A DNA stretch of 64,000 nt from Gymnopus androsaceus JB14 (taxonomy: Eukaryota; Basidiomycota; Agaricomycetes; Agaricales; Omphalotaceae). The stretch is taken from NCBI GenBank assembly GCA_009733575.1, contig ML769518.1, forward strand, positions 103,533-167,532, given 5' to 3'. A program made the translations under genes and the position numbers. The notes below the pieces were generated by a model. The model saw only the letters and a program-made list of their open reading frames with translations, was not told where the DNA came from and did not search any database. Position 1 is the stretch's first letter. Each line of letters starts with the position of its first letter. Below, in pieces: positions 11,640 to 62,764 of the stretch.

Positions 11640-12632
11640 TTGGTCTAATAACGGTGTAGAGTTGTGATAATTCTATTGAACACCATTGGCGTCAGACAAC
11701 CTCAAACAACCATTACCTTTGGGCAGAGGGTATTGACATGGAAGAAATGATACCAAGTCCTGATAAACACACGCATTCAGAGGACAGCTGGCATGATGGA
11801 AACTGCTCAACTCAAGTCTCATTCCACTGTTGCTTTCCTGAAACAAGGATTTTTAGGGTTCGACGCGTTAACCGCCCAGAGAAACCTGTTTCTGATTAGA
11901 AATATCCCTAGCCTTAAGTTAAATTTCAAGTTACTTAAATACTTTGGTAGGGATTGTAAAGCACGTATCATTCCTACATTTTTTTCCCCTGCCCCATGGC
12001 TTCCTCAGCTGCATTGACGACGTTTTCTCATTCATCTGCAATGTCTTCAAACTCTCCTTACTTCGAAAGATGCAACTTCACTTCCAACAATGGTACACTT
12101 TTCTCACAGTCAAGTAACTTCAAAATCGACCGAAGTAGCTTCATCTTCAATGATTCTTGTGCATACTACTCTCAGTATTTCTTCTGCCATTAAGCTGACT
12201 GACATGCTTAACAGCGGTACGTCATATTGTTGGCATGTTACAGAAGTTCATGCTGAATATTCGAGTCTGTATGGCACAGATAATTTCCTATGTCAAAGGA
12301 CCTTTATCAGTTTCTTGCCCTAAGTATTTCATTATTGGTTGCCAGTCTCTCGGGACACCAGGCGAGAGTGAGCATATTGTTCGGAGGTTCACAACAGAAG
12401 AGGAGCGAGATAGATTTGATTTATTGTTACAAAGATTTGGGTAAGTTTTGTGGTACTTAGCTAATAATTGAAAAAAGCATGAATCATTTCTCGATCTTCT
12501 CAAGGTGGTCAGCATTTACTATGAAGCCACTGTGGAAGGAGACCTTTTGTGGAGATCCTTGTTTGGTGCTATCTTCTGCAGGTGATGTTTCATTTCTTTG
12601 CCTGCATTCAATTCTGCTATCTAATTTTAAAG
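11640..12632 (+). other. possible 5' exons of the unknown spliced gene
   Basis: Several coding-like stretches occur: an open frame from 12041, one at 12235-12440 ending at a good donor (12441, with a CTAAT branch point and an AG at 12477), and one at about 12478-12587 ending at a donor GTGATG with branch point CTAAT and acceptor at 12632. I cannot join them in one frame to the exon that starts at 12633. Either my exon boundaries are wrong or there are small indels. The start codon of the gene is therefore not determined. Confidence 0.3.
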
Positions 12633-14123
12633 GAAGCTGTATATACGTTGAGGGACATGCTAGGAGAGAGGGTTTACCGTTGGAGTAGAGTAAATATGGT
12701 AAGACATAATTCCTCTTTTAATTTTGGATCCATCTCATCATGCAGAAAAGAGCATCAAGATTTCAGTATGATTGATATTATGCGTTTCAGGGGATCTAGA
12801 TTGATGGTGTCACAGGCATTTTTCATGAGCAGCTCAGAAGTTTATCCTGGTAGATGGGACTGGAAAAAATTGTGGAAGAATGAAGGTCCATATGAGGAGT
12901 TGAAGCTTTTTGATAGATATGGAAACTTCATAGTAGATGTGGAGCTGCTTGAAGCCCGTGGTTTACTTTTCCATGGGTATACAGAGTTTCAGGTGAGGAT
13001 GGCGAGTTAATAATAATAAGCAGAGAGTAATGGACATCTCCTAGATGCATGGAGACACAATGCTAGCTGCAAAAATGATAGGGGACCTGAATGAGATGAA
13101 GAGGTTGAAAGGTGAGCACAAGATATATGGAAGGATATATGAGTTTCAGAATGGACATATTTCAATAGGAAATGCCATTTTAAGTCAATCATTGAATAGA
13201 CATTTGAAAGAAGTAGAGGTAAGAGGATGATTGAATCATGTGGAATATTAAATTTACTGCTATTATCATCCCTCTCTTTCCCCAGCCTGTGAGTCCCTCC
13301 TCCCTCCTTTCCAGTGTGCAGCATGAATGCTCACTGCCATGCCCATCCCTCTCTTTCTCCAGGATGTGAGTGCTCCTTCCCTCCTCTCCAATTAGTTGTG
13401 TGAATTCTCACTGCAATGCCCATTCTGTCTTTTTCCAGGCTGTGAGTCCCCCATCCTTTCTTAGCAGTGTGCTTTGTGAGTGCTCACTGCCATTGTCATC
13501 CCTCTCTCCTTCTCCAGCCTGTGAGTCCCATCTCCCTGTCCCAAGTACTGTATGAGTGCTCACTGCCATTCTCATTCCTCTCTTTTCTGCAGCCTGTGAG
13601 TCCCATCTCCCTTTTCCCATGTGCTGTGTGATTTCTCACTGCCATTCTCATTCCTATTTTCCGCAGCCTGTGAGTCCTCCTTTGCCCAGTGTGCTGTGTG
13701 AATGCTCACTGCCATTGTCATCCCTTTCTTTCTCCAGCATGTGGGTCTCCCTCCCTTCCAGTATGCTATTTGAATGCTCATTTCTATTCTCATCCTTCTT
13801 TTTCTGCAGTTTGTTAGTCCCCTTCTGTTCTGCCCAGTGTACAGTGTGGATGTTCACTACCTTTGTCATCCCTCTCTTTCTATAGGTTGTGAGCCTCTCC
13901 TCTCCAGTGTGCTGCATGAGTACTGGCTACTATTCTTATGCGTTTCTTTCTCCAGCTTGTGAGTCCCCTTCCCTCCCTTCTAGTGTGTCATGTGATTGCT
14001 TACTGCAATTTACATCTCTTTCTTTTTCCAGTCTGTGAGTCCCCATCTTCCAGTGTACTATGTGAATGTTCACTGACATTTCCATCCCTCTCTTTCTCTA
14101 GCCTGTGAGTCCTCCCCTATCTG

Positions 14124-14161
<38 letters not shown>

Positions 14162-15753
14162 GCTTACTGCCATTCTTATCCCTCCCTGTCTCCAGTTTGT
14201 GAGTCTCTCTCCCTCCCCTTCCAGTGCATTGTGTGAATGCTCACTAACATCAACCCTCCCTTTCTGCAGCCTGTGAGTCCTCCTTCCCTTCCCTTCCAGT
14301 GTGCAGACTATGTGCTGAGTAAATGCTCACTGCCATTTTTATCCCTCTCTTGCTCCAGTTTGTGAGTCTTCCCTCCCACTCTCCAATGCAATTGTGCATT
14401 GTGTGAATGGTCACTGACATTCCCATCTCTCTCCTTCTCCAGGATGTGAGTCACTCTCCTCTCCTTGACTTTCAGTATGTCATGTGAATGCTCACTGCTA
14501 TCCTCATTTTTCTCTTTTCACAGGCTGTGAGTCCTCATCCTTCCCCCCAGATTGCTATGTGAATTCCCACTGCTGTTCTCATTGCTCTCTATTTCTAGTT
14601 TGTCAGTCCTTCTGCCCTCCTCTCCAGTGTGCCATGTGATAGCTTACTGCCATTCTCATCCCTCCCTTTCTCCAGCCTGTGAGTCTCCCCTCCCTCTCCT
14701 TCCAAGTACTGTGTAAATGCTCACTGCCATTCTCATCCCTCTCTTTCTCAAGCCTGTGAGTCCCCTCTCCCTTCTCCCCACTGTCCCAGTGTGGTATGTG
14801 AATGCTCACTGCTATTCTCATTTCTCTCTTTGTTCAGCCTGTGAGTCTCCCCTCCCTTCTCCTTAGTATGCTATATGAATGTTCACTGCTATTCTCATTT
14901 CTCTCTTTCTCCAGGATGTGAGTCCCTCTACCTCCCTTCCAATGTATGATGTGAATGCTCACTGCTATTCTCATCTCTCTCTTTCCATAGGATGTGTGTT
15001 CCCTCATCACAGTCTTCTGTGTGAATGCTCACTGATACTTTCATTGCTCTCTTTTTCCAGGATGTGAGTCCCTCTCCCTCCCCCTTCCAGCATGCTATGT
15101 GAATGCTTGTTGCTATTCTCACCTCTCTCTTTCTCTAGTTTGTCAGTTCTCCCTCCTTCTCCAGTGCACTGTGTGGATGCTCATTGTCATTGTTATCTCT
15201 CTCTTTCTCTAGTATGTGAGTCCTTCTCCCTCCCCTTCCAGTGGGCTATGTGGGTGCTCACTGTTATTATCATCCCTCTCTTTCCACAGGCTGTGTGTTC
15301 CCCATCCCTCCCAAGTTTGCTGTGATGTTGACTGTCAAAATTCTCTTCTCCTTCTTTTTCTCAGATTGTAAGTCTTTCTTTTGCTCTTGTGTCCACATAT
15401 TACCACTTTTCCCTCTCAGGACAATGACCGGTTTCAAGAAATATCAGATTCTGAAATTTGTGATGAATCATCAAACATTGAAATGGTTGAAATGGAAATT
15501 TCTTCAGATGATGTACCTCTCCATCATCTAGAAGTGGCCATGGATTATGCTGAAATTGTACAATCTGAAGAGCCAATGGACATAGAACCAGGTATACCTG
15601 AAATTGCACTTGCATCTGGCTTCTGTCCACTCAAGACCTCTGCTATTCTTGAGCTACATTATGGTCACTAAAATTGACTCATGTTTTTTTACATAATTAT
15701 TTAACTTTTTATATTTAGATAATGACAGCATGTCCCTTTGTGAGCCCTGGTAG
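12633..15753 (+). CDS. unknown protein, 3' part, with an array of 3-nt microexons
   Basis: Exons supported by frame are 12633-12992, 13045-13218, 28 triplets inside 13219-15419, 15420-15591 and 15719-15753 (TAG). The first two exons give about 178 residues, including the words PGRWDWKKLWKNEGPYEELK and FHGYTEFQ. The last two give an acidic tail rich in Asp, Glu and Ser. Exon 15591 ends in phase 1 and joins 15719 in frame. Exons 13218 and 15420 are both phase 0, so the frame holds whether the triplets are spliced in or skipped. A 47-nt GT-AG stretch at 12699-12745 is not used in this model because removing it gives a stop. I recognise no family. The 5' end is unresolved. Confidence 0.6.
13219..15419 (+). 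repeat. tandem array: 29 GT-AG intron units separated by 28 NNT triplets
   Basis: Each unit begins GT (20 of 29 are GTGAGT; others GTGGGT, GTTAGT, GTGAGC, GTCAGT, GTGTGT, GTAAGT, GTAAGA) and ends in a pyrimidine tract plus AG, typically TTTCTCCAG. About 30 nt before the AG is a conserved TGCTCACTG, a branch-point-like word. Unit lengths are 52-91 nt, mostly 67-76. Between units stand triplets starting at 13286, 13363, 13439, 13518, 13593, 13667, 13738, 13810, 13886, 13956, 14032, 14102, 14196, 14270, 14359, 14443, 14524, 14599, 14676, 14753, 14838, 14915, 14991, 15061, 15139, 15213, 15290 and 15365. Nine are CCT, five GAT, five TTT, three GCT, and one each CAT, GTT, CTT, TCT, TAT and ATT. All end in T, so none can be a stop codon. 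Confidence 0.85.
14127..14157. repeat. (TG)n microsatellite
   Basis: An uninterrupted TG run of about 31 nt lies inside unit 13 of the intron array and accounts for that unit being the longest (91 nt). It does not touch either splice site. Confidence 0.95.
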
Positions 15754-17886: not shown

Positions 17887-19003
17887 TGTGAGACCCGGTG
17901 CACGAAACGGATCTCGGACCAACGTATCCTGAATGTCTCGCACCTAGATGTAGGTGGAGACCAAATGCAACCACCCGGGGTAACCGTGCCGTAAGGTGGG
18001 TCTGGACAGTAGTATGAGTGTTGTATGGAACAGTACAAGCCTCAGAAGTGCAAGGAACAGTGTACGGGCCACCCGCTGACGTAATCAGGAGGAAGCGGGT
18101 GGTATTGTGGTCCGACGACCAGAAATGAGTGGGAGCGGATGGAATATGGGTGAAGGGGTGGTCCAAAAAGGTGTAATAAGTCCAAATATGGATAATGCGG
18201 ATGGAATACAGCAAATGCGGACGGAAATAGCGTGAGAGCGGGTGGAATAGGGTGAAAGCGGGCGGAAATAGCGTGGGAGCGGACGGAATAGTGCAAAAGC
18301 GGACGGAAATAGCGTGGGAGTGGATGGAATAGGGTGAAAGCGGATGGGAATAGTGTGAGAGCGGACGGAATAGCGTGAGAGCGGATGGAAATAGCGTGGG
18401 AGCGGACGGAATTGAGTGAAAGCGGACGGTCCCCGAGGTTCTAGAGGTAGCAAAACCCAAATAGGAAGCTCCCGAGGAGCTTTGGTTGTAAAGTTGTAAA
18501 CAGAGATAGAAGACAGTGAGCTCTGGACGTAGATTGGGTATCTACGGACAGAGCCTCGCAGTTAATGTAGATGACAGTGGGCCTTCGAACGGAGCTCGGA
18601 AGGCACAGCTGGTTAGAACAGATAGAAATAGAGAGACAGAGACAGAGACAGAGCAAAATGGGATTGATTCGGTAACAATGGTAATAACAGACTAGGGTGC
18701 ATGGACTCGGGGTGTCTACTTATATACTGTAGGGTGGCTGTGTAAGTCGTCGGGAGGGCCTGATGGATGGTTATCAAGTGCGGGAGGCACCCGGGAGGCA
18801 GGATAAGTGGTAATCACATGTAGAAAGTGCCCGGCAGGCAGGATAAATGGTAAATAAGCATGGAAAGCGCCCGCAATGTAGGTAATGAGTGCAGGAAGTA
18901 TCCGCAGACGGTCAGGAAGCGTGGGAAGTATCCGCGGACGGCCAGGAAGCGTGGGAAACATCAGCGGGTGGATAGCGGATGAGAAATGAGCCAAGGCCTG
19001 ACA
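17887..19003 (-). mobile_element. solo LTR, 1117 bp, 5-bp target duplication CAGTA
   Basis: The unit starts TGTGAGACCC and ends CCTGACA, and CAGTA stands on both sides (17882-17886 and 19004-19008). It has the TG...CA ends of an LTR and no internal retroelement domains. A TATATAAG word on the minus strand near 18723 suggests that orientation. It contains a minisatellite at about 18190-18430. The orientation call is weak; the LTR-like boundaries are well supported. Confidence 0.7.
18190..18430. repeat. minisatellite of about 20-nt units
   Basis: Units such as AGCGGACGGAATAGCGTGAG and close variants (GGATGGAAATAGCGTGGG, GGGTGAAAGCGG) repeat about a dozen times. Read on the minus strand they give low-complexity frames rich in Pro, Ser, Leu and Phe, which I regard as an artefact of the repeat. 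Confidence 0.85.
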
Positions 19004-34328: not shown

Positions 34329-37260
34329 CTAAGAATCGGCAGGACCGGGTTTGTTCGGATACCGAGTATGATAAGCCGGAAGTAATTCATCTGCTGACAG
34401 CTCGTTGGCTGCTATCCATGAAAACTCTTCGTCTGTTCCTTTGTAACCTCGCCACCGGATGTAGTACCGAAGCGGGCATCGTTTGTATCGTCGGTCATAT
34501 TTCGAGTCCAGTATCTCGGCGACTTCGAATTCGGTTTCACCATCAACCTCTACCGGCGGCGGCGGTGGTTGAACTCGGTTTGGAATGGAGTTGGGAATAC
34601 TTGGTTCAAGTTGCGAGACGTGGAAGACCGGATGGATTCGGGATAGATATTGAGGAAGCTGGAGTTTATAGGATAGGGAGCCGGGTCGGCCGATGACCTT
34701 GAATGGGCCTAGATATTTCTCGGAAAACTTCTTTGTTGGCCGGGTAGATTTGATGTGCTTCGCGAGAACGAAGACGTCGGAACCGATCGGAAACTCGGGG
34801 TGTGGAATGCGAGACTTATCGGCTTGTTCTTTATAACGATCCTGTGCGTTTTTGATTTCGGTACGGAGGTAGGAATGGAGCTCGTCAAGATTTACTGCGA
34901 AGTCACGGGCTCGGTCGGAACGGATATCAATTTCGGGTCGAACAGTGATGTTCGGATGATAACCCTTATTGGCGAAGAATGGAGAAATACCGGTCGAGGC
35001 GTTCGGCGCATTATTGTAGGCAAATTCGGCAAGTGGAAGGATCTCATCCCAGTTGTCCTGTTGATAGGAAGTGTAGATTCGAATATATTGCTCTAGCGTC
35101 TGATTGACTCGTTCGGTTTGACCGTCGCCTTCGGGGTGATAACCGGAAGTAAAATGTAACTCCATAGAGAGAGCTTGGCCGAGAGCGCGGAAAAAGGCCG
35201 AGACGAATTCGGAACCTCGATCGGAGGTTACGTGGCTCGGAACTCCGTGTTTAGAAAAGACATGTAGGACAAAAAGAACAGCAAGCTGCTCGGAGGTGAT
35301 CGATGTATGACAAGGGATGAAGATACCTTGTTTTGAGGATCGGTCCACAATGACCAGTATCGAATTATAACCGTTGGAGTTCGGTAACTCTTCGATGAAG
35401 TCCATGGAAATAGAATCCCATGGCCGAAGCGGAACCGGAAGTGGTTTGAGCAGACCATATGGTCGGTGCCGGCGAGACTTATTACGACCGCAGGTTGTGC
35501 AGGAACTTACGTAGTCGCGGACAAAGTCTCGGACTTTCGGCCAGGTGTACTCTCGTCGAATGGACTCAAGTGTTCGGTTCTGACCGAAATGACCGGAGAG
35601 CGGGTGGTCATGGAAATATCGGAGGACTTGAAGTCGAAGGTCTCCGCCATTAGGTACGTAAATTCGGCTATCCAGTTGGAGTAGACCATCAGAGCCGAGA
35701 GACCAGCGAGGTTTCGACGGATCAGCGGCGGCTTCTAAGCGGCGGCTGCTTCCGCATCCAAAGGAAGAGAGAGTCGGATGGCATTATGAAGTGCCTCAAT
35801 ATCCATGACGATTGATGCTCGGAGTATCGGACCTTCGAGAAAGGTTGCTCGAAGTGATGTGGTTAGTTGTTCGTTTGTGAAGATTGGTCGGAAATTCTGT
35901 GGATTGACTTGCGCGTAGCCGATATCCCCCTCTTTCGGGTAGACGTCCCATCGTCTAGTCATAGCGTCGGGTTTTTCACCGAGCTTACCGGGACGGAACC
36001 GGATCACCATATTGAAGGTGTGGAGGTATTCGGACCATCGAACCTGTCGTCGGGTCAATATTTTCGTAGTTGAGAAATACTCAAGATTCTTGTGGTCGGT
36101 CACCACATCGATCGGTTCACCGGAGCCTTCGAGGTAATGCCGCCAGCTCCGGAACGCCTCGAAAATGGCGAGGAGCTCTTTGTCGTGAGTGTCGTAGTTG
36201 AGCTCTGCCGCTTGGAGCGTTCGGGATAAGAACGCTACCGGGTGAATTTGACCGTCATCGAGGAGTATAGAAAGGATTGCCGCGACGGCGTAGTCGGACG
36301 CGTCGGTTTCTATGATAAGGGGTCGGTTTGGTTCCCAATGTGCAAGGATCGGTGCGTGTGTGAAGGCAAACTTCAATTTGTCAAATGCTGCTTGACAATC
36401 GGCCGACCATAACCAGTCGATACCTTTTCGGGTGAGACGGTTTAGTGGAAGGACGATTTCAGAATAATTATAAATAAAATGGCGATAGAAATTAGTGAAA
36501 CCGAGGAAGGATTGGATGTCCCTGACTTTCCGAGGAGTTGGCCAGTCAGTGATTGCTTGTACCTTGTCGGTGGCCATCGTCAACCCGGCCGGCGACATGA
36601 TGTAACCGAGATATTCCACTGTATCGACCGACCATTCGCACTTCTTCGCATTAGCAAAGAGTTTGTTTTTCCGGAGCCGCCGGAGGACTTCCCGAACGTG
36701 TTCCTCATGTTGCTCGGGGGTTATCCGAGTAGATCAGGATATCGTTGAGATAGACGATGACGTTGACATCAATCATGTCCGCTAGGACTTCATTGATGAA
36801 TCGTTGCCATGCGGCCGGGAGCGTTTGTGAGACCAAAGGGCCATGACGTGTCAGGTCGTAGGAACCCCATCGGGTGCGGAATGTTGTTCTCCATTCGTTC
36901 ACCTTTGTGTGATTCGGACGAATCGGTTCTTAAAGCATGTTTAAGGTCGATTTGGGTGTATATCTGGCTTGTTCGTGGAGCAACCCAAAAGACGGTCGGA
37001 TATGCGCACGGTGGGATCATCGTGTCTTTTTCGTAATTCTGTTAAGACTTGGAAATCGACACCAAAGCCGAAGGGAGCCGTCTTTCTTCGGTGCGAAGAG
37101 ACCGGTGCTCCGTGGAGCTGAGTTGATACAGAAAATGATCCGCGTTGTTGAGATGGCTCATCGAGAAAATCTCGGGAGAGGCCTGCTGCCTCACGAGGGT
37201 GAAGAGTGGAATGATTCGACGCGAGGCGGGGAACTGCCTTTCTTTCTAGTTCAATCTTGA
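34329..37260 (-). pseudogene. chromovirus pol: reverse transcriptase, RNase H, integrase, chromodomain
   Basis: Read on the minus strand. RT palm pieces lie at 36.7-37.0 kb, including VYLNDILIYSDN (the second copy has the standard YLDD). The RT thumb and RNase H are at 36619-35735, with FLGFTNFYRHFIYNYS, IETDASDYAVAAIL and VTDHKNLEYFS. The integrase zinc-binding part is at about 35690-35480. The integrase core and C terminus are at 35405-34329, with IVDRSSKQGIF, GYHPEGDGQTERVNQTLEQY and a C-terminal chromodomain (LRYYIRWRGYKGTDEEFSW). Frameshifts occur at about 36620-36750 and in the integrase N terminus. Upstream of 36.7 kb indels are dense. Part of the damage may be sequencing error. Confidence 0.88.
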
Positions 37261-46222: not shown

Positions 46223-46873
46223 TTAGTTTTATCTAAACAGATGAGGACTGTCCATTATTTTTTAAACACATTTAAATACTCTGTTTAAACAATAATTTTT
46301 ACCACATATTAGGGTGGAGGAGAGTCTGGTCATGTGATAAATCATGTGACTAATCACATGACTATGACTCACTAGCTAATATCCAAGGGAAAATTAAACA
46401 TGCCAATGATATGCTGTGGGATGTAGTCATGTGATCATGGAAAAGTTAAGGTCCACACATGACCTAGGTGTAGGTGGGCTAGGGGTTAGGATTAGGTTAG
46501 GCTAGGGGTTAGGAAGTTAGGGTTAGGGGTTAGGGTTAGGTTAGGTTAGGGGTTAGGTGGTTAGGGGTTAGGTTAGGTTAGGTTAGGGGTTAGGTGGTTA
46601 GGGTTAGGGATAAGGACAAAGTCTGAGGTGCAGGGCTTGCCCCACTGTTAATGAGGCTGTGTAGTCTCAGGATGAGTACTAAGGGCCTGGGAAAGAATGC
46701 AGTGCAATAGTAGTCCAACACACGGGGCAGGGGGGTGTCAGTTTTTTCCCACGATGCCCTGCTCAGGCTCTACATAAATATTTAGTTGTGTTTAATTATG
46801 TTTAAACAATATAACTCTGTTTAGACATGTTTAAATAATGCTGGACAATCCTTACATGTTCAGAGAAAACTAA
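46223..46873. mobile_element. TIR-bounded element carrying telomere-like repeats
   Basis: The left end TTAGTTTTATCTAAACA matches the inverse of the right end (TTAGTTTTCTCTGAACA), and similarity continues inward for about 45 bp around GTTTAAACA words. It lies in the RecQ-like gene. No target duplication was seen. The core contains the telomere-like stretch at 46474-46612. Confidence 0.55.
46474..46612. repeat. interstitial telomere-like repeats (GGTTAGG variants)
   Basis: About 140 bp of TTAGGGG, TTAGGG and TTAGG units in irregular order, with TAGGTGG variants. The fungal telomere unit is TTAGGG. The irregularity and the position inside a TIR element argue against a fresh chromosome end. Confidence 0.8.
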
Positions 46874-47465: not shown

Positions 47466-50400
47466 ATGGAGAGAGAATCTAGCCAGTCTGCACAAGATGA
47501 AGAAGAGTGGGCTGAAATTCAAAGGGCTATCAGCATGTCATTGGAGGAGCCTGAAGCACAGGTAGGTGGTAGATTTTGGTTGTGAATATGCAGCATAGTT
47601 ATCTCACAATTCCATTGTAGATCATGAGTGATTTATCACTTTATGCAGAAGGAGAAGACGAGTTTTACAAAGCTTTAATCCTGTCAACTTTGTCATCAGA
47701 GGAGGGGATTAGTAAAGTGATGTCCCGTCTCGAATCGAGAGTATGTTTCAATTAGCAGTTGGATGGACTTGAGCTTCTTACTCATTGGGACTAATTAGGC
47801 AGATGAGTTGCACAATGAAGCACTGCGATTAATGGAGTCTTTTCAGCATTCAGGAGACATATCCCAAATTGACAATGCTGTGCAACTCTTTGAGCAAGCG
47901 GTTGGACTTGCACCTCGAGCTCACATTGACATATCTGCAACAAAGCTTAATAACCTTGGTGTTGCCTTGCATTTACGGTTTCTCCATCTAGGAGTGCTTG
48001 GTGACATAGAAAGTGCTATTGTGGCCACTAAGCAAGCAGTTGAACTCACACCTGATGGTAATGCTGGCAAACCTAGTTGGTTGAATAACCTTGAAAATGC
48101 GCATAAGTCACGATTTAGCTATTTAGGAGATCTTAGTGACATAGAGAGTGTCATTGTGGCCATTAAGCAAGCGGTTGAGCTCACACCTGATGGTCATGCT
48201 GACAAAACTGCAGTGCTTAATAACCTTGGCAATGCATATGAGTCACGATTTGGCCATCTAGGAGAGCTTGGTGACATAGATAGTGCCATTGTGGCCAAGA
48301 AGAAAGCAGTTGAACTCACACCTGATGGTCATGCTGACAAACCTCAAGTGCTTAACAATCTTGGCACTGGCTTGTACTTACGATTCGGCCATCTAGGAGA
48401 GCTTGGTGATGTAGAAAGTGCCATTTTGACTCAAAAGGAAGCTGTTGAACTCACACATGATGGTCATCATGCCAAACCAGGCAGGCTGAGTAACTTTGGT
48501 GTCATGTTGCAGTCATGATTTGACCTTCAAGGAAAGCTTGGTGACCTAGAAAGTGCCATTGTGGTCAAGAAGAAAGCTGTTGAACTCACACCAGATGGCC
48601 ATCTTGACAAACCTGGCAGGTTGACTAACCTCGGCAGTGTCGGCACTGCCTTGCAGTCATGATTTCGCCATACAGGAGAGCTAGGTGACATAGAATGTGC
48701 CATTGTGGAAAAGACAAAAGCTGTTGAACTTACATCTGATATTCATTCCACAAAACCTACAATGCTTAATAACCTTGGTAGTATGAGTTACAATTTGGCT
48801 ACCTAGGAGAGCTCGGTGACATAGAAACTGCCATTTTGATCAGAACAAAAGCAGTTGAACTTACACCCAATGGTCATGCTGACAAAGCTGGCTTGTTAGA
48901 TCAATTGGGAAATGCATATCACTTAAAATTCAACCAATCTGAGGATCCATTTGACCTGGATTGTGCTTTATCTGCTTTTCAAGAAGCCAGTCTGCAGTCA
49001 TCTGGTAAACCTCATGTGCAACTACAGACTGCAATAAAGTGGTCTAAACTTTGTTCAACTCCAGCCTTGGCTGTTGAAGCATATAAAAGATTTTTTGAGC
49101 TAATCCCTCGAGTTGCCTGGCTTGGAAAAACAGTTGCTTGTCGCTATCAGGAGCTACCTCAGATCGGAAGGGTCATTGGTGCAGCAGCTGCAGCAGCCAT
49201 TTCTGCAGGAGATCTCCTACTGGCAATTGAGTGGCTGGATGAAGGTCGTAATATTGTCTGGGGACAGATACTCCAATTGCGGTCACCATTGGATGATCTC
49301 CGTCATCAGCATCCTGGAATTTCAAAAGAATTGGAGATGGTTTCCCAGGCTTTAGAAAATGCAGGGACATCTACCTCAAATAACTTTGAAAATACAGACT
49401 CAGGAAGCAAACAAGCAACTGCTGAGGAAGAAGCACAGAAGCATCGCAGATTTGCAGCTCAGTATGAAGGCCTTATAAGCCAGGTCAGGTCTCTAGATGG
49501 CTTTGAAAGCTTCATGAGACCAAAAAAATACTCTGAACTTGCTTTAGCTGCTACACATGGGCCAGTAATCACTGTGAATGTGGACAAAATTTGGTGTGAT
49601 GCATTAGTTGTATGCTCTCCTCAGGACATTATCCATGTTCCTCTTACCAAATTTTCATTGGAACTAGCACACAAGTTGCACATTAATCTGATGTCATCAC
49701 TTCATGCTAATAGTGTTCGCACTGTTAGAAATGGTGATCGACTTTCACTTGTTAAATCAGGGGCCAATCATGACCATTTTGCATTAATTTTAAAATCTTT
49801 ATGGTCTAATGTTGTGCAGCCCATTCTGTCCCGGATTGAGGATGTGGTAAGATTTAGTATTTTGACTTCTTACGTGCTCTAATAATTTTTTATTTTACTA
49901 GCTATATGACTACAGTCACGATTACATTGCTCAGGTAACATGGTGTGCAACAGGACCACTCACCCTTCTCCCCCTTCATGCAGCAGGGATATATGGTGGC
50001 TCAGTGGAGAGCAATATTGACATTTCTGATTTTGTTGTATCATCTTATACCGCCACCTTGAGAGCTTTGACTGAATCTATTCCTAAACTCAAAAAATATC
50101 AGGCCAAGCTTCCCACTGTTCTTATTGTCTCACAACCTGAAACACCAGGATTTTCCCGCCTACCTGGTACTGTCGATGAGGCAGAGGCTATTCAAAAATA
50201 TACCTTGAGCAAATATACTTGCCACCTCAATCATGATGCAGCAACATCAGAGACTGTTATGCGTGCAATAGGAAATTACAATTTCATCCATTTTGCTTGC
50301 CATGGGATTCAGGACATCCAGGATCCACTCAACAGTGCATTTGCTTTGTATGATCAGAGACTAAAGCTCAAAACACTGATGGGCTTGTCCTTGAATAGTG

Positions 50401-50525: not shown

Positions 50526-51430
50526 TACCCGCAGGTATTTGACCTGCGGATCCCGGTACCTGTTTCCCACGGATCTGGCACAGGTCACAGGTCATCCTTT
50601 GGGATTTTTTAATGACGTGCAGGTACCTGTGGATCCGACTACTCAAGCACTATAAATATTGAGTAATTTCATTAAAGTTGACTGATATTAGTACATTCAT
50701 ACCTAATGAAGTTATTAACACTAGTATTTGTATGTTTTGAATACAATAGTGCTAGTAAGCTATAATTAACTAGTATAATGGCTGTTTTCTCTACTTATAA
50801 TATATTGATACCAATTCCTGCATTAGTACTAGTTACTCCAGACTAAGTTACAGCTTAAGCATTAGGTACAGCATACCAGTGGTAATAGCTAGTATTACTA
50901 GTTTTCTACTAGTAAGTGTAATGCTAGGACTAAGTGATGGTGCTTGACACATGTAGTAGACTACAGAATATAACGAATGTTACCTTTATAATAATCTTAT
51001 ATGGTTTTGAAATGCAGGTACCTGTATTTCTGGTCAGTCCAGGTACACACAGGTGAGCCCTGGGTCTTTGTATGCTCTCAAACTCCTATACTTATTAAGT
51101 TGTTACTGCTAATACAATACTAGTATAGTACTGACAAAGCTTAGGCTAAATACTGTATCAAAAAGATAGTCATTGTATTACTTCCAGTCCATGCTATTTA
51201 ATACTGATACTTATTACTGGAAGCAATGGCATAAGATTTATTGCTAACAAGTACTGAAAACCTAGATTAAAATTTTTCAACAGGTCATACAGGTACCTGC
51301 AAGTATACCTGCCACGGATCCTGGTTATACCGGACCTGTTTCCCACGAATCCGGGGCAGGTCACAGGTCAGCCCTTTGAGGCCACAGGTACCTGTCTGGC
51401 GGATCCGGGTTGACCTGGATCCGGACTCGT
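50524..51430. mobile_element. element with GGTACCTG/GGATCC-rich ends that truncates the CHAT domain
   Basis: Its two ends share about 85 bp in direct orientation (CCTGTTTCCCACG, then CAGGTCACAGGTCA and CAGGTACCTGT), at about 50552-50638 and 51330-51411. The outermost bases (ACCCGCAGG... and ...GGATCCGGGT) are partly inverse. The AT-rich interior has no gene. It begins within the CHAT frame, giving the stop at 50523-50525, and ends against a copia gag frame. The class is uncertain. Confidence 0.5.
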
Positions 51431-52140
51431 GTCCATCTTTAGAACTTGAACACGAGCTGACATCAGGGAGGAATGGAAAAGTGTGGAAGGCTTGGAAGAC
51501 AAAGAGGGATATTGCCACTTCGATTATTGTCAAAAGTCTCAACACCGACCAGTATGTCCACCTCAAAGGTATTGACAATGACCCCCTCGCGATGATGGAG
51601 ACCTTGCGGAAATACCACACAGTGAAAGGACTTGGTTCACTCACATCCATCTACCAAAAGATGATGCACACCTGGAAGAAGGATGACATTTCCATTGAAA
51701 CCCACATCAAAACAATCCGTCAGTATGGAGACCTACTTGAAAGTCTCAGTGAGCCGATTTTGCCTGTTCTCATCATTGCATGCATCCTCTCCACCCTCCC
51801 TGCCGAATATAAACCTGTCATCACTGCACTCGATGGAGACCCCCAAGGGTATGATGTTCTCTACGTCACCGCTTGTCTTCAGAACTTTGCCATCACCAAA
51901 TTCACCAACAATGAAGATGATCTCCCCAGTGCTACAGCTTTGGCTGCTAATCGCTACAAGCCTTACATCCATCATCCTGTTTCCAAGATTACGTGTTTCC
52001 AATGCAGGAAACATGGTCACTACCAGTCATCCTGTCCTGAACCAGTTGAAACATTCACTGGTGCTGCGTTGACACCCATGGACACTCATGTCCTCTTGGC
52101 AGAGATGCCCTTCAGCACACACAAGGTGTTACCATTCTAG
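51376..52140 (+). pseudogene. Ty1/copia Gag, truncated element
   Basis: The frame reads 254 aa. Gag of the copia (UBN2) type is recognisable from WKAWKTKRDIATSIIVKSL and QYGDLLESL. A CCHC zinc knuckle, CFQCRKHGHYQSSC, is near the C terminus. The first 25 or so residues come from the neighbouring element, so the true N terminus and 5' LTR are lost. No protease, integrase or reverse transcriptase follows; the 3' LTR starts only 120 bp after the stop, so an internal deletion has removed pol. Confidence 0.8.
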
Positions 52141-56697: not shown

Positions 56698-56935
56698 CAT
56701 CAGCAAAACCTGTATTGACTGGGACTCTCTCAAAGCGCTGTCAAGCGCTTGCCAGCACTGGGATGTGCTGGCCAGTGCCAGTGAGTGCTAGCCAGTGCCA
56801 GTGAGTGCTAGCCAGTGCCAGTGAGTGCTAGCCAGTGCCAGTGAGTGCTAGCCAGTGCCGGTGAGTGCTAGCCAGTGCCAGTGAGTGCTAGCCAGTGCTA
56901 CCAGCGGGTCCCAGCCGATACAGGTTTTGCTGATG
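56698..56935. mobile_element. CATCAGC-type MITE with an expanded 20-nt tandem core
   Basis: The termini and TC flanks (56696-56697 and 56936-56937) correspond to the 138-bp copy at 1410-1547. Here the core GTGCCAGTGAGTGCTAGCCA is repeated five or six times, which accounts for the 100-bp size difference exactly as five 20-nt units. Confidence 0.85.
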
Positions 56936-59897: not shown

Positions 59898-62745
59898 CTA
59901 AGAATTGGCAGGACCGGGTTTGTTTGGATACCGAGTATGATAAACCGGAAGTAATTCATCTGCTGACAGCTCGTCGGCTGCTATCCATGAAAACTCTTTG
60001 TCTGTTCCTTCGTAACCTCGCCACCGGATGTAGTACCGAAGCGGGCATCGTTTGTACCGTCGGTCATATTTCGAGTCCAGTATCTCGGCAACTTCGAATT
60101 CGGTTTCACCATCAACCTCTACCGGCAGCGGCGGTGGTTGAATTTGGTTTGGAATGGAGTTGGGAATACTTGGTTCAAGTTGCGAGACGTGGAAGACCGG
60201 ATGGATTCGGGATAGATATTGAGGAAGCTGGAGTTTATAGGATAGGGAGCTGGGTCGGCCGATGACCTTGAATGGGCCTAGATATTTCTCGGAAAACTTC
60301 TTTGTTGGCCGGGTAGATTTGATGTGCTTCGCGAGAACAAAGATGTCGGAGCCGATTGGAAACTTGGGGTGTGGAATGCGAGACTTATCGGCTTGCTCTT
60401 TATAACAATCCTGTGCGTTTTTGATTTTGGTACGGAGGTAGGAATGGAGCTTGTCAAGATTTACTGCGAAGTCACGGGCTCGGTCGGAACGGATATCAAT
60501 TTCGGGTCGAACAGTGATGTTCGGATGATAACCCTTATTGGCGAAGAATGGAGAAATACCGGTCGAGGCATTCGGTGCATTATTGTAGGCAAATTTGGCA
60601 AGTGGAAGGATCTCGTCCCAGTCGTCCTGTTGATAGGAAGTGTAGATTCGAATATATTGCTCTAGCGTCTGATTGACTTGTTCGGTTTGACCGTCGCCTT
60701 CGGGGTGATAACCGGAAGTAAAATGTAACTCCATGGAGAGAGCTTGGCCAAGAGCGCGGAAAAAGGCCGAGATGAATTTGGAACCTCGATCGGAGGTTAC
60801 GTGGCTCGGAACTCCATGTTTAGAGAAGACATGTAGGACAAAAAGAACAGCAAGCTGCTCGGAGGTGATCGATGTATGACAAGGGATGAAGATACCTTGT
60901 TTTGAGGATCAGTCCACAATGACCAGTATCGAATTATAACCATTGGAGTTCGGTAACTCTTCGATGAAGTCCATGGAAATAGAATCCCCATGGCCAAAGC
61001 GGAACCGGAAGTGGTTTGAGCAGACCATATGGTCAGTGCCGGCGATACTTATTACGACCGCAGGTTGTGCAGGAACTTACGTAGTCACGAACAAAGTCTC
61101 GGACTTTTGGCCAGGTGTACTCTCGTCGAATAGACTCAAGTGTTCGGTTCTGACCGAAATGACCGGAGAGCGGGTGGTCATGGAAATATCGGAGGACCTT
61201 GAAGTCAAAGGTCTCCGCCATTAGGTACGTAAATTCGGCTATCCAGTCGGAGTAGACCGTCAGAGCCGAGAGACCAGCGAGGTTTGGACGGATCAGCGGC
61301 GGCTTCTAAGCCGGCGGCTGCTTCCGCATCCAGAGGAAGAGAGAGTCGGATGGCATTATGGAGTGCCTCAATATCCATGACGAATTGATGCTCGGAGGAT
61401 CGGACCTTCAAGGAAGGTTGCTCAAGTGATGTGGTTAGTTGTTCATTTGTGAAGATTGGTCGGAAATTCTGTGGATTGACTTGCGCGTAGCCAATATCCC
61501 CCTCTTTTGGGTAGATGTCCCATCGTCTAGTCATAGCGTCGGGTTTTTCACCGAGCTTACCGGGACGGAACCGGATCACCATGTTGAAGGTGTGGAGGTA
61601 TTCGGACCATCGGACCTGTCGTTGGGTCAATATTTTTGTAGTTGAGAAATACTCAAGATTCTTGTGGTCGGTCACCACATTGATCGGTTCACTGGAGCCT
61701 TCGAGGTAATGCTGCCAGCTCCGGAACGCCTCGAAAATGGCGAGGAGCTCTTTGTCGTGAGTGTCGTAGTTGAGCTCTGCCGCTTGGAGCGTTCGGGATA
61801 AGAACGCTACCGGGTGAATTTGACCGTCATCAAGGAGTATAGAAAGGATTGCCGCGACGGCGTAGTCCGACGCATTGGTTTCTACGATAAGCGGTCGGTT
61901 TGGTTCCCAATGTGCAAGGATTGGTGCGTGTGTGAAGGCATACTTCAAGTTGTCAAACGCTGCTTGACAATCGGCCAACCATAACCAGTCGATACCTTTT
62001 TGGGTGAGACGGTTTAGTGGAAGGACGATTTCAGAATAATTATAAATAAAACGGCGATAGAAATTAGTGAAACCGAGGAAGGATTGGATGTCCCTGACTT
62101 TCCGAGGAGTTGGCCAGTCAGTTATTGCTTGTACCTTGTCGGCGGCCATCGTCAACCCGGCCGGCGACATGATGTAACCGAGATATTCAACTGTATCGAC
62201 CGACCATTCGCACTTCTTTGCATTAGCAAAGAGTTTGTTCTTCCGGAGCCGCCGGAGGACTTCTCGAACGTGTTCCTCATGTTGCTCGGGGTTATCCGAG
62301 TAGATCAGGATATCGTCGAGATAGACAATGACGTTGACATCAATCATGTCCACTAGGACTTCATTGATGAATCGTTGCCATGCGGCCGGAGCGTTTGTGA
62401 GACCGAAGGGCATGACGTTCCATTTGTAGGAACCCCATTGGGTGCGGAATGTTGTCTTCCACTCGTCACCTTTGTTGATTCGGACGAGATGGTAAGCATG
62501 TTTAAGGTCGATTTTGGTGTATATCCGGGCTTTTCGTGGAGCATCCAAAAGGTCGGATATGAGCGGCAGCGGATATCTGTCTTTTTTTGTAATTCTGTTA
62601 AGACCTCGGAAATCGACACAAAGCTGAAGGGAGCCGTCTTTCTTTGGTGCGAAGAGAACCGGTGCTCCGTGAGGTGAATTCGATACAGAAATGAATCCGG
62701 TTTTGAGATGCTCATCGAGAAAATCTCGGAGAGCCTGCTGCTCAC
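59898..62745 (-). pseudogene. chromovirus pol, second copy
   Basis: The RT reads well from 62548 downward: IYTKIDLKHAYHLVRINKGD, then VNVIVYLDDILIYSDN with the YLDD catalytic box. The thumb, RNase H (LIVETNASDYAVAAIL; the first Asp of the usual E-T-D-A-S box is Asn here) and tether follow in the same frame to 61205. The integrase zinc-binding part is at 61221-61033 (HPLSGHFGQNR... CTTCGRNK). The core is broken at about 60735-61000, and its C-terminal part with chromodomain is at 60734-59898. Frame breaks at about 61205, 60997 and 60735 make this copy dead unless they are sequencing errors. Confidence 0.88.
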
Positions 62746-62764
62746 AAGGGGAGAGTGGAATGAT

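Follow-up and report, generated by a model that had tools for sequence, protein, structure and literature searches.

We analyzed a 64,000-nucleotide stretch of the genome of the basidiomycete Gymnopus androsaceus JB14 (contig ML769518.1), which we call the window. On its forward strand, at positions 13219 to 15419, lies an array of 29 tandem GT-AG intron-like units with 28 intervening triplets, all of the form NNT. The array sits inside a gene whose deposited product is P0001 (BT96DRAFT_119996). A sequence-only reading had described 29 introns with a 3-nt exon between each and the next, 28 in all, and our recount from the sequence agrees. That account lacked two features that are central here: (i) the array is a member of a family, with at least 14 arrays in the same genome including that of the window; and (ii) within the units, variability is highest at the triplets. 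We consider it probable that the triplets are spliced into a hypervariable, frame-safe peptide, flanked by a conserved N-terminal part on one side and a C-terminal tail on the other.

The introns of the window array are 52-91 nt long. All 29 donors are GT, 20 of them GTGAGT, and all 29 acceptors are AG (22 CAG, 6 TAG, and 1 AAG), the same donor and acceptor conservation that had been reported before. The motif AGNNNGTGAGT is present 22 times on the two strands of the 64-kb window, with 20 copies inside the array and 2.15 expected from dinucleotide shuffles. Unit interiors had been described as diverged with GT and AG kept, and an alignment of 27 window units bears this out: 6 of 77 columns are invariant, namely both bases of the donor GT, the G at +5, both bases of the acceptor AG, and triplet position 3. 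A (TG)n run occupies 14127-14157. Two further AGNNTGT matches, at 13982 and 14474, fall inside units and are not junctions. Joined together, the triplets give the predicted peptide PDAPPPHFVLSPFPFDAFPPPDDDFYAI.

Comparison with paralogues placed the array in the following gene order: exon 1, a 2-nt exon, exons A to C, a 15-nt exon, exons E to G, the array, and a last exon (Table 1). The predicted assembly has 38 exons and 37 GT-AG introns, and forms a single open frame of 369 codons. The exon preceding the array had been given as 13045 to 13218, ending in phase 0. Its end and phase hold; its start was misplaced and is 13169, because a 57-nt in-frame intron (13112-13168), which is used in the deposited P0001, separates it from exon F. 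Reading through the place of this intron leads to a stop in three paralogues, as judged by eye. The last exon is probably 15420-15671, because paralogues read on there. The 2-nt exon is also used in the deposited protein P0003 of a paralogue, L041 (L041:2584-2585). The window sequence reproduces deposited P0001 exactly, and two paralogues do the same for P0002 and P0003; P0001 includes one 3-nt array exon and P0003 includes a 2-nt exon.

Table 1. Predicted exons of the array-bearing gene in the window.
Feature	Position	Strand	Remark
Exon 1, predicted start ATG 11996	11996..12158	+	Open frame; ATG at the same place in L038
Exon 2, predicted 2-nt exon (CG)	12215..12216	+	AG, CG, GT in succession at the homologous place in 9/10 modelled loci (TG in L037)
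Exon A	12280..12440	+	Kept across paralogues
Exon B	12505..12581	+	Kept across paralogues
Exon C	12637..12698	+	Kept across paralogues
Exon D, predicted 15-nt microexon (SIKIS)	12751..12765	+	15-nt candidate in 13/13 loci, window included; region missing in L039
Exon E, coding exon of highest conservation	12816..12992	+	
Exon F	13045..13111	+	P0001 matched letter for letter
Exon G, last before the array, phase 0 end	13169..13218	+	
First 3-nt exon, CCT	13286..13288	+	Separate exon in deposited protein P0001
3-nt exons 1-14, starts	13286, 13363, 13439, 13518, 13593, 13667, 13738, 13810, 13886, 13956, 14032, 14102, 14196, 14270	+	
3-nt exons 15-28, starts	14359, 14443, 14524, 14599, 14676, 14753, 14838, 14915, 14991, 15061, 15139, 15213, 15290, 15365	+	
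Exon following the array, encoding an acidic tail and the stop	15420..15671	+	Possible alternative ending at 15753 through one further intron

We searched the 83.3-Mb genome using the flanking exons and the array DNA as queries. This identified 13 further loci of the family (L036 to L048), all 13 of which carry an array of like anatomy; the best-scoring run of a locus comprises between 5 and 53 parsed exons. The counts for interrupted arrays are lower bounds, as in L046, where 37 candidate junctions were present and 20 were parsed. An additional locus, L049, is a near-copy of L041 with many small indels and was dropped. A homologous upstream exon is present in 12 of the 13 further loci, and L039 (C674) has the downstream exon only. 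Intron sequence differs among subfamilies (e.g., L040 vs L047). Common to the subfamilies are the 3-nt spacing and, within the introns, GTGAGT, a branch site resembling CTGAC/CTCAC, a pyrimidine tract, and the AG. The introns of the window, L040, and L047 also have, by eye, a mid-intron pyrimidine-rich stretch ending in CAG about 25 nt past the donor. A first junction of the form AG/GT, with zero bases between the two sites and thus like a recursive splice site, was parsed in L036 and L038 and is visible in L037. In L040 and L044 the same runs of triplets recur, as if blocks had been duplicated.

The anatomy is largely confined to this family. The pattern GTGAGT-(45-75)-CAG-NNN-GTGAGT has 212 matches in the genome, compared to 11 for a reversed-pattern control, and by our own script count 202 of the 212 lie within the fetched family loci. 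Four of the 10 matches outside these loci were among the matches listed, each the sole one on its contig. When other exon lengths were substituted in the fetched loci, lengths of 0, 1, 2, 4, 5, and 6 gave 0, 0, 3, 3, 3, and 0 matches, vs 202 for a length of 3. Among viral contigs, a two-junction pattern matched 9 stretches and P0005 matched no relative; prokaryote contigs, 257 Gb in total, contained 46 stretches with the pattern.

The paralogues also allowed us to model complete genes and to compare their conserved parts. L044 gives a predicted gene of 42 exons and 41 GT-AG introns, with an open frame that includes 32 triplets and encodes the predicted peptide FSHLFWRLLWLWSPLDFYHDHDLFWRDWLWWP. 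Exon models were made for the window, L037, L038, and L040-L044, and the core exons of L045-L047 came from a separate run. The ratio of nonsynonymous to synonymous substitution rates (dN/dS) in the core exons of nine genes is 0.22-0.56 in all 36 pairs (own script, without a significance test), and this range suggests purifying selection on the core; L045 was left out for its frameshift, and L036, L038, L039, and L048 for want of complete in-frame models. Compared with the other eight genes, the window gene has dS values of 1.1-2.0, and the array anatomy is therefore old relative to its sequence. Pfam gave no family at E values up to 1 for P0001 and two predicted proteins, and only weak, below-cut-off matches for six aligned members, the first of which had none above cut-off. 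Solved structures (PDB) matched the conserved part only at E values of 0.18 or worse, and the AlphaFold model of P0003 has a mean predicted local distance difference test score (pLDDT) of 41.8.

Several properties of the triplets are those expected of codons. Our parser allowed exons of 0-12 nt; for the window, a hand-set chain of 28 exons replaced a parser chain that contained an 11-nt artefact. Across the 14 loci, 273 of 284 parsed array exons are exactly 3 nt long, and in a count made independently of any chain, YAG lies exactly 3 nt upstream of 258 of 301 GTGAGT donors, the next commonest spacing being 0 nt (n=12). Not one of the 273 triplets is a stop; column shuffles within each locus lead to an expectation of 9.86 and reached zero in 0 of 2,000 trials. 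This figure is weakened by block duplication of units, which leaves neither the triplets nor the unit pairs described below independent. It had been argued that NNT can never be a stop; this is true for some copies and does not generalize, as triplets of the paralogues include TGG, AGA, GAA, CAA, TTG, CTG, and others, and are still stop-free. The earlier proposal that each triplet adds one residue thus gains support from the 13 further loci and the absence of stops, at the level of sequence.

Codon usage and the introns themselves point in the same direction. Triplets for Lys, Gln, or Glu are AAA, CAA, or GAA in 17 of 17 cases and GAG, CAG, or AAG in none, vs 39% ending in G in the core exons (codon counts exclude L045). 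An NAG triplet would make a second acceptor, and its absence therefore fits splicing at each triplet. A branch-site-like motif, picked after viewing the introns, is present in 250 of 270 array introns vs 72 after shuffling, and the stricter motif CTRAY is present in 194 of the 270. The maintenance of 3-nt spacing despite turnover of the introns, together with these motifs, strengthens the case for selection on splicing that had been suggested for the window. We rejected the third-position T as evidence for coding. Synonymous C is found at base 3 in 0 of 116 two-fold codons of the arrays and in 5 of 99 such codons before G in the core exons; a C before the donor creates CpG and the core exons are likewise C-poor, so the absence of C mostly reflects CpG avoidance. 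When the joined triplets are read in the other two frames, stops number 2 of 253 and 57 of 253; these arise largely from GAT runs, and we did not use them either.

The triplets are also more variable than the introns that surround them. Eight or more usable units were available in 11 arrays (L039, L041, and L043 had fewer). In every one of these the triplets are more diverse than the intron mean, with ratios from 1.4 (window) to 17.7 (L047). The diversity of triplet positions 1 and 2 is reached by just 4 and 8, respectively, of 778 intron columns, and position 3 is less variable. We then compared unit pairs with 1-2 differences in the approximately 140 nt of flanking intron in ten arrays (without L039, L041, L043, and L045). 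The triplet differs in 97 of 155 such pairs, amounting to 201 triplet-site differences vs 5.7 expected from the intron rate, and in 4 of 13 pairs with identical flanks the triplet still differs. L044 is an illustrative case: the 68-nt upstream intron is identical in nine of its units, whose triplets are CTT, TGG, GAT, TAT, and CAT. A pattern of this kind would not be expected under neutral turnover, because conversion and exchange should make triplets and introns uniform together. We think it likely that either the translated codons are under diversifying selection or some process of change is directed at the triplets.

The architecture, the open frames of the window gene and L044, the 3-nt spacing, the lack of stop triplets, and the excess of triplet over intron diversity are read directly from the DNA. 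Set against a translated array, in addition to the non-independence of units, are several observations on the copies, the exons, and the deposited proteins. Some copies are damaged: the L038 model is out of frame, L045 has a frameshift, L048 contains a stop, and the upstream part is disrupted or missing in L036 and L039. The array of L041 (C267) is split by an insertion of about 1.6 kb (by eye), which is also present in L049, and splice sites are lost in some paralogue units, e.g., where CGG (L037) or CAA (L043) stands in place of CAG. Eleven of the 284 parsed exons are not 3 nt long. Five of these would shift the frame if included, with lengths of 2 nt (L037 and L047) and 4 nt (L040, L042, and L047); the other six are at array ends or are parser artefacts. 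The triplet excess in the window is only 1.4-fold, and base 3 is fixed both there and in L040. The deposited models are inconsistent: P0001 continues after its first 3-nt exon with GAT and then reads on to a stop, models P0002-P0004 end upstream of their arrays, and P0006 takes parts of its array as long exons. The excerpted text of PMC8480192, on Agaricales genomes including G. androsaceus, states that RNA sequencing (RNA-seq) was used for better annotation of the fungal genomes in that paper's set. Finally, a set of 5.8 billion proteins returned only Gymnopus androsaceus proteins and one ENA protein, in a search that was not exhaustive, as P0001 itself was once not relisted.

We weighed four other explanations. 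One is that the array serves mainly alternative splicing, in-frame codon skipping giving many isoforms and diversification of the DNA being secondary. Any subset of triplets keeps the frame, and splice sites that are nearly uniform within arrays make mispairing plausible. However, GTGAGT, pyrimidine tracts, and branch-site-like motifs in most introns would favor constitutive removal, and diversity is already explained by codon variation among units and genes, so we judge this explanation unlikely. We also think it quite improbable that the array is a minisatellite within one long intron, descended from a founder unit that held both intron ends, with triplets that never enter mRNA. Such an origin would account for tandem units with block duplications, which are typical of minisatellites; one first donor and one last acceptor would be enough to remove the whole array; and further tandem repeats are present elsewhere in the window. 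What it leaves unexplained is the 3-nt spacing, the absence of stops and of NAG, the greater variability of triplets than introns, and the branch-site-like motifs.

Recursive, stepwise removal of a long intron, in which the triplets would be splicing way-stations and not code, had been put forward by the sequence-only reading as an option. It gives no reason for triplets to be stop-free and hypervariable, and we regard it as very improbable, even though acceptor and donor are nearly back to back at every junction and the chains of L036 and L038 open with a true AG/GT junction that has no bases between the two sites. Ratchet points are juxtaposed acceptors and donors (excerpted text of PMC8605326), whereas 3 nt separate the two sites at 28 of 28 window junctions, and the whole window stretch is short, at 2.2 kb. 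Introner-like mobile introns, inserted next to each other with 3-nt target duplications, would provide many intron-like copies 3 nt apart, but we find them scarcely credible, as neighboring triplets are often unlike and so are not target duplications, and the copies are not dispersed in unrelated genes (202 of 212 pattern matches vs a reversed control of 11, as above).

If the triplets are spliced in and translated, the arrays could work as follows. The short introns would be removed successively by intron definition, and tiny exons would therefore need no recognition as exons. Unequal exchange and conversion between the repeated introns may add, delete, or reorder single codons; as each exchanged unit consists of an intron and a single codon, no frameshift would follow. 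Codon diversity would be kept up by selection, with targeted mutation as the less likely agent, while introns homogenize. Triplet skipping would keep the frame and could add isoforms. We can only guess at the use of the peptide, and suggest a variable recognition or binding segment. A bolder proposal, which we put forward tentatively and hold to be rather doubtful, is that the array is a peptide diversifier: the introns would be recombination handles and the codons exchangeable beads, the triplets would be diversified by targeted mutation or tract-limited conversion, and the outcome would be strain-specific recognition peptides, multiplied by in-frame skipping.

We compared the arrays with known systems. 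TALE repeats of bacteria are near-identical, and their information resides in a pair of hypervariable residues; they are coding and have no introns. The remaining systems are compared as they are described in excerpts of open-access sources. The closest in anatomy are the schistosome micro-exon genes (MEGs), families of many tiny exons, mostly multiples of three, that are difficult for automatic annotation (PMC10526429). MEG exons are mostly 15 bp long (6-81 bp in the text and 3-81 bp in the abstract of that source), with introns of 0.1-5 kb. The arrays resemble MEGs in their many tiny multiple-of-three exons, of which 273 of 284 are 3 nt, here as predicted from sequence. They differ in having dozens of consecutive 3-nt exons, repeated introns (52-91 nt in the window), and hypervariable codons, and no relationship to MEG proteins was found in the non-exhaustive searches of the 5.8-billion-protein set. 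Plant exons of 1-15 nt, as in APC11 and VPS55, can be spliced (PMC4674806, PMC8831610), and a working single-nucleotide exon has been published (PMC4674806). These plant exons are conserved and occur singly or as adjacent pairs, and no arrays or variability are described in the excerpts of the two papers.

Two other systems are close in evolutionary behavior. The Podospora NLR repeats (het-d/het-e), which have high internal conservation, are alike except at hypervariable sites (PMC12222747). The combination of homogenized repeats and hypervariable codons is common to both, as an analogy only: in Podospora it is coding sequence (WD40) that is homogenized; here it is the predicted intron, and coding would be limited to the variable triplet. 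Pfam scans of P0001, two predicted proteins, and six aligned members found no NACHT/NB-ARC, WD40, ANK, or TPR. In the nematode HYP effectors, a variable domain contains motifs whose number and order change from allele to allele, through "apparently flawless" rearrangements (PMC11228951). There, whole motifs are rearranged, and intron-separated single codons go unmentioned in the excerpted text. Homogenized introns combined with hypervariable single-codon exons are found in none of the compared systems as these sources describe them, nor was a gene anatomy of dozens of consecutive one-codon exons found in the open-access literature, among the matches listed.

The window contains a number of other features. 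Two closely similar retroelement copies lie on the minus strand at 34329-36733 and 59898-62764; Pfam scans of single frames gave integrase and chromodomain in the former, and reverse transcriptase and RNase H in the latter. A Copia-type gag polypeptide frame (Pfam PF14223) is located at 51271-52140. An internal telomere-type repeat, GGGTTA-like, is present at 46476-46609. Open frames at 47799-49882 contain 135-bp tandem repeats (GDIESAIVAKKQAVELTPDGHADKP-like) that look TPR-type by eye; the one frame that was scanned had no Pfam match. Minisatellites are found at 18217-18429 (20/41 bp) and 56765-56898 (20 bp, 97% matches).

If the triplets are spliced in, the family would have a protein segment coded as dozens of consecutive one-codon exons. 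This would be a new route to genome-made protein diversity, one in which the repeated DNA needed for recombination is uncoupled from the protein sequence under selection. A repeat-free peptide could then grow, shrink, and reshuffle residue by residue without frameshift. The arrays would also be an extreme natural test of the spliceosome on exons that are too short for definition, and whether selection or targeted change is the source of the hypervariability would become directly testable.

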